Below are positions 49,258 to 56,554 of a DNA stretch of 64,000 bases, in pieces (the first letter of the stretch is position 1; each line of letters begins with the position of its first letter). The translations under genes and the position numbers were made by a program. This DNA comes from Hujiaoplasma nucleasis (GTDB taxonomy: Bacteria > Bacillota_I > Bacilli_A > Izemoplasmatales > Hujiaoplasmataceae), in NCBI RefSeq assembly GCF_013745115.1, contig NZ_CP051151.1, forward strand, positions 806,001 through 870,000, written 5' to 3'. The notes under the pieces are model-generated. The model saw only the letters and a list, made by a program, of their open reading frames with translations, made no database searches and was not told the DNA's origin.

Positions 49258-49283
49258 AGAAAACTCTAGCAAAGCTAGAGTTT
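49258..49283 (-). terminator. Terminator of the nusA-infB-rbfA operon
   Basis: A 10-bp stem AAACTCTAGC/GCTAGAGTTT with a TTT loop, followed by only four U; it overlaps the rbfA stop. Possibly leaky. Confidence 0.7.
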
Positions 49284-49611
49284 ATTTTATATTCCTAATG
49301 ATATCATCAACTCTTTTACCGGTTTGATAAGATTCATCATATTTAAATACCAATTCTGGAACTTTTCTCATTTTAACACGTTTAGCAATTTGATTCTTTA
49401 TAAAGCCATTAGCTCTATCTAAAGTTTCTTTTGTTTTTTCTATATCTTGTTTTGAACCATAAACTGTGTAATAAGCATACATAAATGATAACTCATTGGT
49501 GATTTTAACACCTGTAATTGTGATAAAAGCAAGTTTATCTTTAATATCATTTTGAAGTATATCGCTTAAGACTCGTTGTACATCTGTTTCTAAATGAGCA
49601 ACTTTTGCCAT
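49282..49611 (-). CDS. rbfA: Ribosome-binding factor A
   Basis: RbfA helps mature the 30S subunit by binding 16S rRNA helix 1. The 109 residues have the KH-like fold pattern: DVQRVLSDILQNDIKD, FITITGVKITNEL, YAYYTVYG and the C-terminal RKVPELVFKYDES block. ATG follows AGAGGTG, 3 bases after infB, as last gene of the operon. Confidence 0.93.
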   Translation of the reverse strand: MAKVAHLETDVQRVLSDILQNDIKDKLAFITITGVKITNELSFMYAYYTVYGSKQDIEKTKETLDRANGFIKNQIAKRVKMRKVPELVFKYDESYQTGKRVDDIIRNIK

Positions 49612-49614
49612 ATA

Positions 49615-51444
49615 TTACACCTCTTTCATTGTTGAAACTTCAATGATGTCTCCTTCTTTGATATCATTGTAGTTTTCAATGGTAATACCGCATTCAAATC
49701 CTTGGCGCACTTCTTTTACATCATCTTTAAATCTTTTTAAAGAACCTAATTTTCCTTCGAAAATTATTTTTCCATTACGAACAATTTTAATCATTGAATT
49801 TCTTCGTACAACACCACTCGTTACCATGCATCCTGCAATGGTCCCAACTTTAGATACTGAATAGGTTTCTCTAACTTCTGCTTCACCAATGACTTGTTCT
49901 TCAAAGACAGGGTCTAACATACCTTTCATAGCTGCTTCAATATCATCTAAAGCTTCATATATGATTCGATAAGTTCTAATTTCCACGCCTTTTTCTTTAG
50001 CTAACTCTCTAACTGATGCAGGTACACCAACACCAAAACCAATTATTATTGCTGAAGATGCTTCAGCCAACAAGATATCACCATCTGTAACTGCACCAAC
50101 ACCTGTACCAACGATATCAATATCAGCACCTTCTACATCAATTTTTCCAATTGACCCTCTAAAGGCTTCAATTGAACCTTGAACATCTGCTTTAATAATT
50201 AAATTCATTTTCTTTGTATCATCAGAAGCTTGATTAAAGAAGTCTTCTAATGACATTACTTCTTTAGAATTATGTTGTTTATCAAAAGCTCTATTTTGTC
50301 TTTCATCTGCTATATCTCTAACAGTTTTTTCATCTTCAAAAACTCTAAAAGGATCTCCAGCTAAAGGAACATCATTTAATCCAATAATCTCAACAGCTTG
50401 TCCAGGTTCAGCTTCCTTAATTTGGTCGCCTAAGTCATTGGTCATAGCTCTAACTTTACCGTAGGTTGCACCAACAGCAAAGTAATCTTGAACTCTTAAG
50501 GTACCGTTATCAACTAAAATAGTCGCTACTGGCCCCCTGCCTTTATCAAGTCTAGCTTCAATAACTGAACCAGTTGCTTGACGATTAGGATTTGCTTTTA
50601 ACTCTTTTAATTCAGCCACAACTTGTATGGTTTCTAATAAATTATCAATACCTTGGTTTTTAAGAGCTGATACTTCCACGAAAGGAATATCTCCACCCCA
50701 TTCTTCAGATAATAAACCTAAATCAGCCAATTGTTGTTTGACACGATCAGGATTAGCGCCAGGTACATCCATCTTATTAACAGCCACAATAATTTCGCAT
50801 TGTGATGCTTTGGCATGGTCAATAGCTTCTCTGGTTTGAGGCATAACACCATCATCAGCTGCTACAACTAAGATTACTATATCAGTAATTCTAGCACCAC
50901 GGGCTCTCATTTCTGTAAAAGCCGCGTGTCCAGGAGTATCAATAAAAGTGATTTTCTTTCCGTTTTTCTCAACTTGATAAGCACCAATATGTTGAGTAAT
51001 ACCACCAGCTTCAGTTGATACAACTCTAGAATGTCTAATGGTATCTAACAAGGTTGTTTTACCATGGTCAACGTGACCCATGATAGTAACGACTGGTGGA
51101 CGAGAAACTAAATCTTCTTCTTTGTCTGTTTCAATGATTTCTTCAAATCTAGTAAGATCTGTAACTACTTCATCTTGTAAGTCTAAATTATATTCCATGG
51201 CTAATAATTCTGCATTTTCTCTATCAATGGATTGGTTTTTTGTTGCCATTATTTTTAAAAACATTAATTTTTTAATAACGTCAGATGCTGGTTTGTTAAT
51301 TTGATCAGCGAAATCTCCAACTGTCATACCTTGTTTATATGTTACAAATTTAGGCATCACTTTTTTGGGTTGTGAATTTTGCTTATTTTGATTTTTCTTA
51401 TTTCCTGTAAATTTCTTATTTTTATTTGGTTCATGTTTTGGCAT
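49615..51444 (-). CDS. infB: Translation initiation factor IF-2
   Basis: Delivers fMet-tRNA to the 30S subunit. At 609 residues it is a short form: a basic Asn/Lys-rich start, one IF2_N domain ([20 protein letters not shown]), then GTPase motifs [14 protein letters not shown] (about 122-135), DTPGHAAF and NKMDVPG, and domains II-IV. Larger relatives have long N-terminal extensions, which are missing here. ATG follows AGAGGTGG. Confidence 0.97.
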
Positions 51445-51465: not shown

Positions 51466-51765
51466 CTATAGTAAACTTATAATCTTTTTAGCGAATCCAG
51501 CATCTTGAATTGCTATGACCATCCGATTACTCTTGCCAATGGCTTTACTCAACTCATCTGATGTAAAATCCTTGATGATTTGAACTTGATAAGTCTTGGC
51601 TTTATCACTAACTCTTTTGCTTGTATTAAAACCAGCATCGCTTGCTAGAAAAACCAAGCGAGCTTTTTGGCTTTTAATTTTATCTAAAGACATTTCTTCC
51701 CCAGAAATTAAGCGGTTAGCCCGCATACATAATCCTAAGATAGATAATATTTTCTCTTTATTCAT
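51466..51765 (-). CDS. ylxQ: YlxQ, L7Ae-family RNA-binding protein
   Basis: 99 residues of the L7Ae/L30e fold, which binds kink-turn RNA. Seen: ILGLCMRANRLISGEE at the start, LVFLASDAGFNTSKRVSDKA and IGKSNRMVIAIQDAGFAKKI. The position between ylxR and infB is the standard one. ATG 51765 overlaps ylxR by 8 bases; no strong ribosome-binding site, so translation is probably coupled. Confidence 0.88.
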   Translation of the reverse strand: MNKEKILSILGLCMRANRLISGEEMSLDKIKSQKARLVFLASDAGFNTSKRVSDKAKTYQVQIIKDFTSDELSKAIGKSNRMVIAIQDAGFAKKIISLL

Positions 51766-52024
51766 TGTCAATCACTTTGAACAAAGTCTCAAAAACGTCA
51801 TTAGGAACTTCTACATCTAAATGTCTAGATAATATTTTGTGTTTCATGGCTTTTTCAATCACTATTTTGTTTTTTGATAGATAAACGCCGCGACCATTCG
51901 CTTTACCTGTTGGATCATAAATAACTTGCCCTTCTGGAGTTCTTACAACCCTTAACAAGTCTTTTTTTTCCATGCGTTCATTGGTCACAACACATTTTCT
52001 CATGGGAATTTTCCTAACTTTCAT
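51758..52024 (-). CDS. ylxR: YlxR family RNA-binding protein (RnpM)
   Basis: 88 residues of the YlxR fold: IPMRKCVVTNERMEKKDLLR, then the GRGVYLSKNK block that forms the nucleic acid-binding surface. Bacillus YlxR has been reported to bind and modulate RNase P and proposed as RnpM. ATG 52024 is preferred, with AGGTGA five bases upstream and 10 bases after the nusA stop. Confidence 0.9.
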   Translation of the reverse strand: MKVRKIPMRKCVVTNERMEKKDLLRVVRTPEGQVIYDPTGKANGRGVYLSKNKIVIEKAMKHKILSRHLDVEVPNDVFETLFKVIDNE

Positions 52025-52033
52025 TTTTATCAC

Positions 52034-53098
52034 CTAGAATTCTATACCCTCAGATAAGGCTTGAGATTCAGCTTTAATATCTATTTTCCATCCAGAAGAT
52101 TGGACAGCTAGTCTTGCATTTTGTCCTCTCTTACCGATGGCCAAAGACAATTGATCATCTGGAACAACAAGGATGGCAGATTTTTCTCTTTCATCATATT
52201 GGACAGACAAAGTTCTTGCTGGTTGAATCGAATTAGCAATTAATTCTTCAGGGTTTTTACTATATTTATATATATCAATTTTTTCGCCATTTAAACTATC
52301 AATAACATTTTTAATACGCATACCATTGCGACCTAAACAAGCCCCAACAGGATCAACATTTTCATCATTTGATAAGACACATACTTTGCAACGATCTCCA
52401 GGATCTCTAGCAAGACCAAAAATTTCAATAATACCTTCAGCTAATTCAGGAATTTCATTTTCCATTAAACGAATTACTAAATTACGGTCAGTTCTTGATA
52501 CATATACTTTTGGATCTTTGTTGGTTTTTTCTACCTTTGTGATATATACATTCACTTTTGAACCAACAATCAAATCAGATGCAAGTAAATCTCTAGATGG
52601 AATTGACGTTTCAGTATCTCTACCTAAAAACAATGTCACAAAATCATTTTTAATCTTAATGACTTCAGCAATAATCATTTCGCCAACACGTGACTCAAAA
52701 TACTCATAGTTTTTATCTCTCTCTAATTGTTTTAAACCTTGAGTCAACATTTGTTTGGCAGTTGAAGCTGCTAAACGACCAAAATTCTTTGGCGTGATTT
52801 TTTCTTTAATGATATCTCCCACTTTAGCATTCTTCTTGATTTCTCTTGCTTGTTCTAAAGTGATTTCATGTCCTGGTTCACTATTCGGATCTATTTCATC
52901 CACAACGATAGATTTAGAAACGATATCAATTTCCGCTTTTTCTGAGTTAAAAATAACTTCAGCGTTATTTTTACCCCCATAAGCTTTTTCATAAGCTTTG
53001 ATAAGCCCGTCTCCGAAGATCTTTAAAATCTCTTCTTGACTTACGTTTTTTTCAATGGCTAAATTTTCTAATGCTTTAAAAAAATCTTTACTAATCAT
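52034..53098 (-). CDS. nusA: Transcription termination/antitermination protein NusA
   Basis: NusA binds RNA polymerase and modulates pausing and intrinsic termination. The 354 residues comprise the N-terminal polymerase-binding domain (1-125), an S1 domain (about 130-200; GEMIIAEVIKIKNDFVTLFLG), and two KH domains (CKVCVLSNDENVDPVGACLG, and SLAIGKRGQNARLA near the end). It lacks the acidic repeats of E. coli. The start overlaps rimP by four bases. Confidence 0.96.
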   Translation of the reverse strand: MISKDFFKALENLAIEKNVSQEEILKIFGDGLIKAYEKAYGGKNNAEVIFNSEKAEIDIVSKSIVVDEIDPNSEPGHEITLEQAREIKKNAKVGDIIKEKITPKNFGRLAASTAKQMLTQGLKQLERDKNYEYFESRVGEMIIAEVIKIKNDFVTLFLGRDTETSIPSRDLLASDLIVGSKVNVYITKVEKTNKDPKVYVSRTDRNLVIRLMENEIPELAEGIIEIFGLARDPGDRCKVCVLSNDENVDPVGACLGRNGMRIKNVIDSLNGEKIDIYKYSKNPEELIANSIQPARTLSVQYDEREKSAILVVPDDQLSLAIGKRGQNARLAVQSSGWKIDIKAESQALSEGIEF

Positions 53099-53541
53099 TT
53101 TCTTCTCCTAAAATCAATGGCTAATCTTATTAGATTAACATCTATATAATTTACTTTTACTTTTTTGTTTTTAATCGATAAGGTTAAGGTATCTCCATCA
53201 AAAGCTATTAAGTCACCTTCAAAATTTTGAGTAAAGGTTTCAACATAAACCAAATGATTTATGGCGTGTTTAATCGCTTCAGCTGTTCTTAGTTCCCTTT
53301 CAGCCCCTGGAGATGATACTTCCATCATATACTCACCTTCTATAGGGTCTAATTCATCGATGAAGGGATTTAATTCTTGAGTTGCTAAAACAACATCATC
53401 CATATTGACGCCTTCAGTTATATCGATATAAATTCTTAAAATAGTCTCTTTTCTTTCCTTTACTATTTCCAAATCATATAGATCAAAACCAATGTTTTCT
53501 AAAAAAGATTTAACCTTTTCTTTAATTTCTTGAACCTGCAT
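53095..53541 (-). CDS. rimP: Ribosome maturation factor RimP
   Basis: 148 residues; RimP assists 30S assembly. The N-terminal KH-like part shows LYDLEIVKERKETILRIYID and SPGAERELR (the family hallmark), and the C-terminal SH3-like domain follows (FEGDLIAFDGDTLTLSIKNK). ATG follows GAGGTGA. First gene of the rimP-nusA-ylxR-ylxQ-infB-rbfA operon. Confidence 0.94.
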   Translation of the reverse strand: MQVQEIKEKVKSFLENIGFDLYDLEIVKERKETILRIYIDITEGVNMDDVVLATQELNPFIDELDPIEGEYMMEVSSPGAERELRTAEAIKHAINHLVYVETFTQNFEGDLIAFDGDTLTLSIKNKKVKVNYIDVNLIRLAIDFRRRK

Positions 53542-53648: not shown

Positions 53649-53942
53649 TTATACCTTGGTTTTAACATTTATAACGATGTCTTGATAGTCTGGGTGTTTC
53701 TTAAACCAAGAAATGGCATATGGGCATTTTGCGACAATTTTTAAGTCTTGGCTTTTGATAAACTGATAGGCTCTCAACATCAACTCTGAAGCTACCCCTT
53801 GTCCTCTTAGCTCAGGAACGACAAAGACATGGGTAATATCCACTCTAGATTGATCTCGAGCTGGAAATAAGACTTCAGCCAATAAAATCATGTTATCATC
53901 CACAGAGTATATTCTATTATCATCATATAAATAATCCATCAA
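53649..53942 (-). CDS. Small GNAT-like acetyltransferase (YjdJ/Gcn5 type)
   Basis: 97 residues of the short one-domain GNAT group. The acetyl-CoA pyrophosphate loop is ELRGQGVASELMLRAYQFI (about 51-69) after the strand ITHVFVVP, and the end CPYAISWFKKHPDYQDIV is typical of this group. The substrate is unknown. It overlaps the TrmH-type gene by four bases (ATGA). Confidence 0.85.
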   Translation of the reverse strand: MMDYLYDDNRIYSVDDNMILLAEVLFPARDQSRVDITHVFVVPELRGQGVASELMLRAYQFIKSQDLKIVAKCPYAISWFKKHPDYQDIVINVKTKV

Positions 53943-54652
53943 CGATTACCTCCTAGTTCATACATTAAAATACTGCCTGCCACAGCTACATTTAATGATT
54001 CCACTTTTTTCATTTTTAATTTAATCACTGAATCGGCTTTATTGATAATTTCAGGGTCAACTCCTTGTCCTTCATTACCTAAAATTAATCCGAATTCTTC
54101 ATGATGTTTTTTTTCAAATTGGCCTTGGGCAGATAAATCAGTTGCATAATAATGTATAGGATGTTTATCCATGAAATCTATGATGTTATCTTCAATGATA
54201 TTTATCTTAAATAAGGCCCCTTGGGTAGATCTTATGACCTTAGGATTATAGACATCCACACAATGATCGACCACAAGACTTTCAAAGCCAAAAGCAAGGG
54301 CAGATCGAATCAGTGTTCCCATATTTCCGGGATCTTGAATACCATCACACAAAAGAACCTGTTTTGAAATATGACTTTCTTGGGGAAAGTGACAGACACC
54401 TATTAGTCCTTGAGGACTTGAAACATCTGATAACTTTTGAATAATCTCTTCAGTTACTAAATAACTTTCTATCTCATAAGGCAAATCTTGCCCTAGATGA
54501 AAAACTATCTCTAAAAGACCCGCTTCATAAGCTTCCTTAATAAGGTGTTCCCCCTCTATTAAGAATTTACGCTTATCTTGCCGGTATTTTTTTTGTTTTA
54601 GCTTGGCTGTTTCAATAATTAACTGGTTTTTAATAGAAGTAATCTCTTTGAT
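53939..54652 (-). CDS. TrmH/SpoU-family RNA 2'-O-methyltransferase, apparently AUC start
   Basis: A full-length 237-residue SPOUT enzyme: N-terminal RNA-binding part (ITSIKNQLI...KYRQDKRKFLIEGEHLIKEA), then the knotted domain with LLCDGIQDPGNMGTLIRSA, FGLILGNEGQGV and LNVAVAGSILMYELG. No ATG, GTG or TTG occurs in frame between the previous gene's UAA and residue 57 (TTG 54484), which would remove the N-terminal domain. AAGGGG stands seven bases before an AUC codon (54650-54652) where the family's sequence begins, so AUC is the most likely start; a nearby AUU is second choice. It probably modifies 23S rRNA or tRNA ribose. Confidence 0.8.
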   Translation of the reverse strand: MKEITSIKNQLIIETAKLKQKKYRQDKRKFLIEGEHLIKEAYEAGLLEIVFHLGQDLPYEIESYLVTEEIIQKLSDVSSPQGLIGVCHFPQESHISKQVLLCDGIQDPGNMGTLIRSALAFGFESLVVDHCVDVYNPKVIRSTQGALFKINIIEDNIIDFMDKHPIHYYATDLSAQGQFEKKHHEEFGLILGNEGQGVDPEIINKADSVIKLKMKKVESLNVAVAGSILMYELGGNR

Positions 54653-54664
54653 AAAAACACCCCT

Positions 54665-56554
54665 TTACTCTACTTGACTAGAATCATCACCCTGATTAAC
54701 TTCTTGATTAAATACAATGGATGACGTTCTATTAAAATCATTCAACATATCAAATTCATTAATTTCATTGTATGAAATTGTATAGATTTTGTCATTGATA
54801 AATATAGCTTTTTCGATATAACCATAATAATTGCTTGGTGTATTCCTTAAAATACTTACCTGACTTAAATGATTCATTTCATCAACCTGATATAAGTAAA
54901 TCGCTTGATAATACTGACCATATCCATAAGAATAAGCATAAACAGGTATAGCAAACAATAAAGAATTATTCCATTCATACTCTACAAATAATTTATGATC
55001 ATAGGTGACTGGAGAATATGAATATTCACCTTCAACCAACAAAGTTTCTAAAGTTATAGGTTGGTCACCTGATGTATCATATAAGGCGACTTTTACGCCC
55101 GTAAAAATAGTAAATCCATTTGAATTATCCGCTTGACGCCCAATACCTATCATTAAATCGTCATTGATAGGGTGTAAATAATCACTCACACCTTCTTCGT
55201 ATAATTCACCTAGAATCACCGGATGATAAGGGTCAGATAAATCAATCTTATATAAAGGATCTGTATTAACAAAGGTCACCACATAAGCAATATCTTGACT
55301 CATTCTTACTGCATATATACGTTCATTTGGTTTTCCCAATCCTCTTAAAACAGAAATAATACTTAGTTCATTATCTGTCGCATCTAACAAATAGAGTTGA
55401 TTGGTTAATTCTACACCTTCTTGACTATAAATATAATCTGTTGTAGCTAATCTTAAAATTCCTTCATACTCATCAAAAGAAAACTGATTTAAAGTCCATC
55501 CATCGATCTGATTTGCTGCTTGGAATACAAGCTTACCTTCTACAATTTTAAACCTTGAAATACTGGTGTATTGTCTATAATTTTCATCTTCTTCACTGTA
55601 ATGATAGACATGGCCAGAAATATATAGGTTTTCTTGATTCATATAAACCTCATAAGCGTAGGTTAAATAAGCATTTAAATCAATACTTACTTCTTGATTT
55701 ACATTAAAAGAAGCAACCATTAAATAAGATGAGACTTGATCAGAATCAGGATAATAAAAGATATCTTCATAAGTTAAATTAATAAAGTCATCACCTAAAA
55801 GAGAATCCTTGTAAGAAGGTGTGACTATTTCTTCATCATACCACCAATGATAAGAAGACATCATAATAAAGAAATCGCCTTCAATCATTCGACTATCCAC
55901 CAAATAAGTGTTCTTAAACTCGAATTGTCTTTCCACTTGAATATTTGACTTATCACTAACATCCAGAACATCAATTCGTAAGTTTGAAGATCCCCACCAC
56001 CAATAATAAGGAGTGACTTGATCATCATCAGTCATTCTTTGGTATTGGTCGTATAAGACAATTAATTTATCCTCATACAAATAGATACCATGGTAATAAG
56101 CATAAGCATAATATTGGTCTGTTTCATCTATTAAAGAATCTTCATAGACTAGACTCATTGATTCTACATCAACAATCCTTAAATCTTGGTTCTTGGCCAT
56201 ATATATGTAATTCCCGTCAGTAATGATGGTATCCATTTCAGAAACTCCGCTCACTTGAACATTGGTTTCAGAATGCCTTTCTTGGTCTTCTTCATTGGTG
56301 TCATCCAAACCGGCTTCTGGTGTTAAGATATTATCTCCACCATAATATTGAGTCTTTTGCGCCAAAGAATTTACATAATCATTCATTTCTTCTTGACTTG
56401 AAAATTGTTTTAAATAATCGCTTTCTATAATTTCTTCACTTGTTTCTTCACTGATATCTTCAGTGGTTTCATTAGTGTTAATCGCTTCTTCTCCACAAGC
56501 GACTAAAGCAAAAAATAGAAAAAGCATTAAGGTAAAGCTTAATAATTTCTTCAT
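54665..56554 (-). CDS. Secreted lipoprotein with beta-propeller domain
   Basis: A 629-residue lipoprotein: signal peptide with lipobox LVAC and lipidated Cys20, a Glu/Thr-rich linker, then the beta-propeller domain of the PF09826/COG4880 type, recognised by QVSGVSEMDTIITDGNYIYMA (about 99-119) and repeated blades such as LRIVDVESM and RIDVLDVSDKS. It is attached to the outer face of the membrane. Its role is not known; these propellers are proposed to bind proteins or carbohydrates. ATG follows GGAGGTG, 16 bases after pepF; part of the thiI operon. Confidence 0.85.
   Translation of the reverse strand: MKKLLSFTLMLFLFFALVACGEEAINTNETTEDISEETSEEIIESDYLKQFSSQEEMNDYVNSLAQKTQYYGGDNILTPEAGLDDTNEEDQERHSETNVQVSGVSEMDTIITDGNYIYMAKNQDLRIVDVESMSLVYEDSLIDETDQYYAYAYYHGIYLYEDKLIVLYDQYQRMTDDDQVTPYYWWWGSSNLRIDVLDVSDKSNIQVERQFEFKNTYLVDSRMIEGDFFIMMSSYHWWYDEEIVTPSYKDSLLGDDFINLTYEDIFYYPDSDQVSSYLMVASFNVNQEVSIDLNAYLTYAYEVYMNQENLYISGHVYHYSEEDENYRQYTSISRFKIVEGKLVFQAANQIDGWTLNQFSFDEYEGILRLATTDYIYSQEGVELTNQLYLLDATDNELSIISVLRGLGKPNERIYAVRMSQDIAYVVTFVNTDPLYKIDLSDPYHPVILGELYEEGVSDYLHPINDDLMIGIGRQADNSNGFTIFTGVKVALYDTSGDQPITLETLLVEGEYSYSPVTYDHKLFVEYEWNNSLLFAIPVYAYSYGYGQYYQAIYLYQVDEMNHLSQVSILRNTPSNYYGYIEKAIFINDKIYTISYNEINEFDMLNDFNRTSSIVFNQEVNQGDDSSQVE

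Follow-up and report, generated by a model that had tools for sequence, protein, structure and literature searches.

In this genus, translation of rlmP, a gene coding for a predicted rRNA methyltransferase, appears to start directly at AUC or AUU codons. The case was detected in the window, which is the whole stretch of 64,000 nt that we have analyzed. The best explanation overall, to which we give a probability of about 0.72, is that the AUC or AUU start keeps the dose of the enzyme low, with sensitivity to initiation factor IF3 built in. The gene is found at the head of a conserved operon, rlmP-GNAT-rimP-nusA, which extends in the window through ylxR, an L7Ae-like gene, infB and rbfA. The names rimP, nusA, ylxR, ylxQ, infB and rbfA are presumptive, we have assigned them from the look of the proteins. 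The features are as follows, all of them on the minus strand.

54665–56554, minus strand: beta-propeller gene upstream of rlmP (Pfam PF09826)
54665–54667, minus strand: UAA which ends the beta-propeller gene, in frame with the AUC of rlmP
54658–54665, minus strand: Shine-Dalgarno sequence of rlmP, AAGGGGTG, read in the window sequence
54650–54652, minus strand: proposed AUC initiation codon of rlmP, in an aligned column which reads ATC/ATT/ATC/ATT/ATG in five congeners
53939–54652, minus strand: rlmP/ysgA-like gene for a predicted SPOUT 23S rRNA 2'-O-methyltransferase, from the AUC start to a UGA stop (Pfam PF22435 and PF00588)
53649–53939, minus strand: GNAT-family gene (Acetyltransf_CG, Pfam), whose AUG overlaps the UGA of rlmP as TGATG
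53095–53541, minus strand: presumptive rimP, the next operon gene
52034–53098, minus strand: presumptive nusA
51758–52033, minus strand: presumptive ylxR
51466–51771, minus strand: L7Ae-like gene, presumptive ylxQ
49615–51444, minus strand: presumptive infB, initiation factor IF2
49282–49611, minus strand: presumptive rbfA

The minus-strand frame from 54652 to 53939 translates as (AUC)KEITSIKNQLI... up to the UGA. The initial annotation had claimed that the stop of the preceding gene shares this frame, and that ATG, GTG and TTG are missing over 56 codons which code for a conserved RNA-binding domain. All of this is confirmed. The UAA is found at 54667–54665, 12 nt ahead of the AUC, and no canonical codon occurs in frame until codon 57, a TTG at 54484. 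Pfam places an MRM3-like substrate-binding domain (PF22435) at residues 9–85, so most of the RNA-binding domain would be lost with a start at codon 57. The AAGGGG motif noted earlier is located at 54665–54660, separated by 7 nt from the AUC. We have thus a conserved protein head without any ATG, GTG or TTG, and an AUH codon at Shine-Dalgarno distance.

The initial annotation had described the product as a TrmH-type methyltransferase. This holds as far as the SpoU/TrmH superfamily is concerned: A SpoU_methylase domain (PF00588) covers residues 99–231. On the other hand, the protein is not a tRNA TrmH (Gm18), since it scores 28.5 bits with the NCBIfam TrmH equivalog, whose cut-off is 227; it falls below the cut-off of every other NCBIfam equivalog as well. 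The build, an L30-like N-terminal domain and a SpoU/SPOUT domain, is that of RlmP/YsgA, with RlmP closest, and the best PDB match is 7qiu (E 6e-44), followed by 1ipa (E 1e-26). The 7qiu structure is listed in a table of PMC12123411 as B. subtilis RlmP, which forms Gm2553 in the 23S A-loop. As this is the best solved relative, we have called the gene rlmP; its product is a predicted 23S rRNA 2'-O-methyltransferase of the RlmP/YsgA type. It has in common with RlmP/YsgA of Bacillus subtilis the protein family and the two-domain build (PMC12123411; 7qiu), but its role in Gm2553 is putative, deduced from sequence, and the AUH start is confined to the genus of the window in the loci read. The alignment of the five congeners presents conserved stretches which are invariant.

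An alignment of close relatives had been proposed by the initial annotation as a check, together with the claim that the AUC lies exactly where relatives begin. Both points are answered by the five genomes of the genus: The start column contains ATC in G000 and G004, ATT in G002 and G003, and ATG in G001. Each of the five leaders has a GAGGTG-like site and zero in-frame canonical codons after the last stop. In the relatives, GAGGTG is found four to five bases ahead of the AUH or AUG. These sequences support the AUC as the best reading of the rlmP start.

Outside the genus the situation is different. None of the 25 other family loci has an AUH start (against 4 of the 5 congeners), and all 25 have ATG, GTG or TTG near the head. 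Family loci could be read except in G009 and G010 (no locus), G031 (a paralogue only) and G017 (no match). A loose test was applied to 80 loci from named genomes: In 79 of them, a canonical codon is found no more than eight codons from the aligned head; the exception, L191, matches from residue 21 only and is uninformative. Non-ATG starts as a whole are frequent in rlmP, with 13–14 cases in 30 family loci: 4 AUH, 5 TTG and 4–5 GTG. TTG is found in four of the six g10 loci.

A tree of rlmP and NusG_II places G003 with G001, and G000 with G002 and G004, with good support for both groups. Either the AUH start is ancestral in the genus and G001 has reverted to AUG, or it has two origins. The AUG of G001 also means that the weak start is dispensable or has been reverted. 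Among the congeners, the fourfold third bases of rlmP have come close to saturation (9–17 identical of 31–46), so the non-AUG start has persisted beyond the time of neutral turnover. By themselves, four non-G third bases would be unsurprising under neutrality, as third-position G content is about 8–15%; the argument rests on start codons being non-neutral.

We have surveyed G000 and G002 for similar cases, using non-overlapping, reciprocal gene pairs. The first sample compared 410 kb of G000 (460001–870000) with 400 kb of G002 and gave 258 pairs; a further 400 kb of each gave 305. The total of 563 pairs covers less than half of each genome and contains roughly ten ORFs from rRNA or tRNA regions and some gene fragments. 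One screen, which demanded at least eight conserved residues ahead of the first canonical codon in either species, flagged 21 of the 258 and 38 of the 305 pairs, which were then sorted by eye. A conserved N-terminus without a canonical start in both species was found for infC and rlmP in the first sample, and for a membrane protein with a NusG_II domain in the second. The other screen, for AUH or CTG codons preceded by a site better than that of any canonical pair, printed 54 candidates among the 563; by eye, only the same three genes were judged real, the others being inside coding sequence, misaligned or near a canonical start. Starts of the AUU/AUC type in both species are thus limited to 3 of 563 gene pairs. 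There may be further AUH genes in the rest of the genome. In a published comparison of 36 genome triplets, a switch from AUG to AUU was reported for 1 of 61,358 ancestral AUG starts (PMC5622118).

The infC gene is the classical example of an AUU or AUC start: IF3 rejects such starts, and it autoregulates its own synthesis in this way. The parallel with infC which had been drawn earlier is real, since infC of the same genomes starts with ATT behind GGAGGTG in the five congeners. The spacing of 5 nt is the same as that of GAGGTG in rlmP of G002, G003 and G004. All 30 family loci have ATT or ATC at the head of infC; in some, G019, G020, G032 and G033 among them, a GTG or TTG also stands in frame immediately ahead of it.

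The NusG_II gene codes for a small membrane protein with a NusG domain II (PF07009, E 5e-14). In the family f1, 34 genomes have a match, four of them without a locus, and 30 loci were read. One of these is L267, in G000 (C1:929374–929874, minus strand). ATC or ATT starts are found in 18 loci from six genera. These comprise every g1 locus (five) and every g10 locus (six), along with three loci of g2, two of g3 and a single one each from g4 and g11. The start of the remaining 12 is ATG, GTG or TTG. Two of the 18, those of G026 and G028, have an in-frame ATG or GTG no more than six codons upstream. The AUC or AUU is mostly preceded by AGGTGAT or a similar site. ATC is the preferred codon (14 loci, with 4 ATT and no ATA), though it is the rarest isoleucine codon in G000 (3313 of 16881, with 9523 ATT and 4045 ATA); this preference points to selection acting on the codon. 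In the neighbouring family f2, all 15 loci read, among 39 genomes with a match, have ATG or GTG. As a separate observation, the NusG_II gene L268 (G004, C22:18853–19350, minus strand) contains two in-frame stops, UGA and UAG, and is either decayed or misassembled.

The comparison thus extends the initial annotation: The AUH start would be genus-wide in rlmP and common to a NusG_II gene in the family. It looks as if AUU and AUC starts are used repeatedly in this lineage. Gene finders restricted to ATG, GTG and TTG miss such genes or shorten their proteins; the NusG_II protein would lose part of its N-terminus in standard gene finding.

The mechanism we propose is the following. Guided by a good Shine-Dalgarno sequence, fMet-tRNA would initiate rlmP directly at the near-cognate AUC or AUU. 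Initiation would be weakened, and the operon would produce little RlmP compared with NusA and IF2. As IF3 rejects near-cognate codons in the P site, the rlmP start should be sensitive to it. A weak start subject to IF3 discrimination means that rlmP would be made sparingly, and that its translation would increase when active IF3 is short, as in infC. Most likely, the AUH codon is a low-dose setting and sensitivity to IF3 is its built-in consequence. That IF3 would repress rlmP is inferred by analogy with infC and sigR. Such discrimination has been shown for sigR of Streptomyces and is described for infC (PMC5472188). In S. aureus reporters, non-AUG starts gave about 10% of the AUG output, and the ccpN start up to 30% in rich medium (PMC13009471).

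Another explanation is nearly as good and falls only a little short of even odds. The AUU or AUC start, like the TTG of the neighbouring genus, would just set RlmP lower than the other products of the operon, and dependence on IF3 would have no regulatory role. In its favor, the 13–14 non-ATG starts in 30 rlmP loci contrast with the first sample of G000 and G002, where 216 of the 245 resolved pairs have ATG in both species. The distribution of TATAAT motifs may point the same way. In all 19 loci outside g1 and g10 (L019, L022–L039), a TATAAT ends 9–23 nt ahead of the aligned head, which implies a very short leader, with the Shine-Dalgarno sequence near the mRNA 5' end, at the head of the nusA operon. 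This TATAAT is absent from g1 and g10, G002 apart; in G002, alone among the five congeners, a TATAAT is found within 45 nt upstream, ending at 23 nt. These two genera, in which the near TATAAT is missing or (G002) further up, are also those where weak starts are concentrated. Nevertheless, UUG or GUG would suffice to lower the dose, and AUU or AUC has persisted in four species although it is one base from AUG. Moreover, it is the infC codon class. Folding of 65 nt around the start gives only weak structures, which differ among the five species.

Ribosomes leaving the beta-propeller gene might also terminate and restart at the nearby AUH, in which case the codon would matter little. The UAA found 12 nt ahead of the AUC in G000 suits this idea, and the same gene ends near the rlmP start in G003 and G004. 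In G002, however, the beta-propeller gene is elsewhere, pepF ends about 50 nt upstream, and the start is still AUU. We consider reinitiation improbable. An internal start giving a short protein, such as the TTG at 54484, has very little in its favor, even if canonical codons occur downstream in all five species. The first of them are found at scattered positions (codons 57, 18, 49, 29 and 114), and the first four in each species have no Shine-Dalgarno match longer than 4 nt; none was found for the TTG of the window, which is also preceded by the conserved N-terminal domain. A sequencing or assembly error of ATG in the window is the least credible of all, because four species of the genus have AUC or AUU at this position and their assemblies would have to share the error, with two different codons.

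Direct initiation at AUU or AUC is well supported by these comparisons: The AUH codon is kept in congeners, only 3 of 563 pairs have such starts, and infC and NusG_II share this feature. No other reading accounts for all five species, as reinitiation suits G002 poorly, internal starts are unconserved and poorly sited, and an error would be needed in four assemblies.

Several other candidates were rejected. An out-of-frame GTG (54660–54658) followed by a frameshift lies atop its own Shine-Dalgarno sequence, and by eye there is no kept classical slippery heptamer; the same GGTG, also judged by eye, is out of frame in the leaders of relatives. A code with UGA as tryptophan would give no other start, as the upstream stop in the window is UAA, and in G002 the codons that separate the upstream UAA from the AUU do not include ATG, GTG or TTG. 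A fusion by readthrough of the upstream UAA was discarded because the beta-propeller gene does not adjoin rlmP in G001 and G002. In 40 stretches of G000 (800 kb), ARAGORN found three tRNA-Met (CAT), one tRNA-Ile (GAT) and no odd initiator tRNA.

As for known systems, AUU and AUC starts as such are of a known kind, the rlmP case and a small clade-specific set of AUU/AUC-start genes would be new. To our knowledge, only a few bacterial genes have such starts, and no rRNA modification enzyme has previously been linked to initiation discriminated by IF3. If our reading is correct, rlmP would supply the first such link. In the literature searched, whose coverage leaves out most subscription papers, we have found no AUU or AUC start reported for rlmP/ysgA or for a NusG_II gene. 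A close case is infC, which has in common with rlmP the codon class, the strong Shine-Dalgarno sequence and the 5 nt spacing, in the same genomes; RlmP differs in not being an initiation factor, so any feedback would act in trans through IF3. The pcnB gene codes for poly(A) polymerase and is unrelated to rlmP. In E. coli, it is a further example of an RNA-metabolism enzyme limited by an AUU start (cited in PMC13009471). The sigR gene of Streptomyces also has a non-canonical, expression-limiting start outside infC, but the codon is GTC, gene and phylum are different, and control by IF3, shown for sigR, is proposed for rlmP (PMC5472188). In Staphylococcus, AUH starts are described for cvfC1 (AUU), ccpN (AUA) and citZ (AUA), with extended Shine-Dalgarno sites in cvfC1 and ccpN; cvfC1 is the first gene of an operon, as is rlmP. 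These are other genes, whose starts come from ribosome profiling and reporters, while that of rlmP comes from sequence (PMC13009471).

A broader possibility is a family-wide set of AUU/AUC genes controlled by IF3, formed by infC, the NusG_II membrane protein and, in this genus, rlmP heading the nusA-infB operon. We regard it as doubtful. If true, a shortage of IF3 would raise an A-loop rRNA methylase, and perhaps also the genes of the IF2 operon through the TGATG overlap and the shared transcript, so that ribosome maturation would be coupled to the supply of initiation factors. By itself, the comparison has provided two conserved cases beside infC in one lineage, one of them across six genera, so the idea that IF3 governs a set of genes and not only itself becomes directly testable.

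Downstream of rlmP, the succession GNAT, rimP, nusA is kept in the family loci with few exceptions. In 30 short family loci (the L001–L039 set), GNAT is found in 27 and rimP in 28; one of the loci, L021, stops inside rimP. Upstream, the beta-propeller gene does not adjoin rlmP in G002 and G001, where pepF is found directly upstream (window, L003, L006, L040 and L043).

Two other loci have unusual leaders. A gene which we take to be efp (G000, C1:513786–514388, minus strand; G002, C1:885865–886467) has AAGGAG 33 nt before its ATG. In both species the inverted repeat AATAATAAATT...AATTTATTATT lies between them, and this hairpin may draw AAGGAG close to the ATG. A presumptive dxs gene (G000, C1:491290–493143, minus strand; G002, C1:863233–865083) has a well conserved leader, whose GAGG precedes the ATG by about 18 nt. 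Four codons ahead of this ATG, an in-frame ATC stands at a better distance from GAGG, a possible further AUC start.
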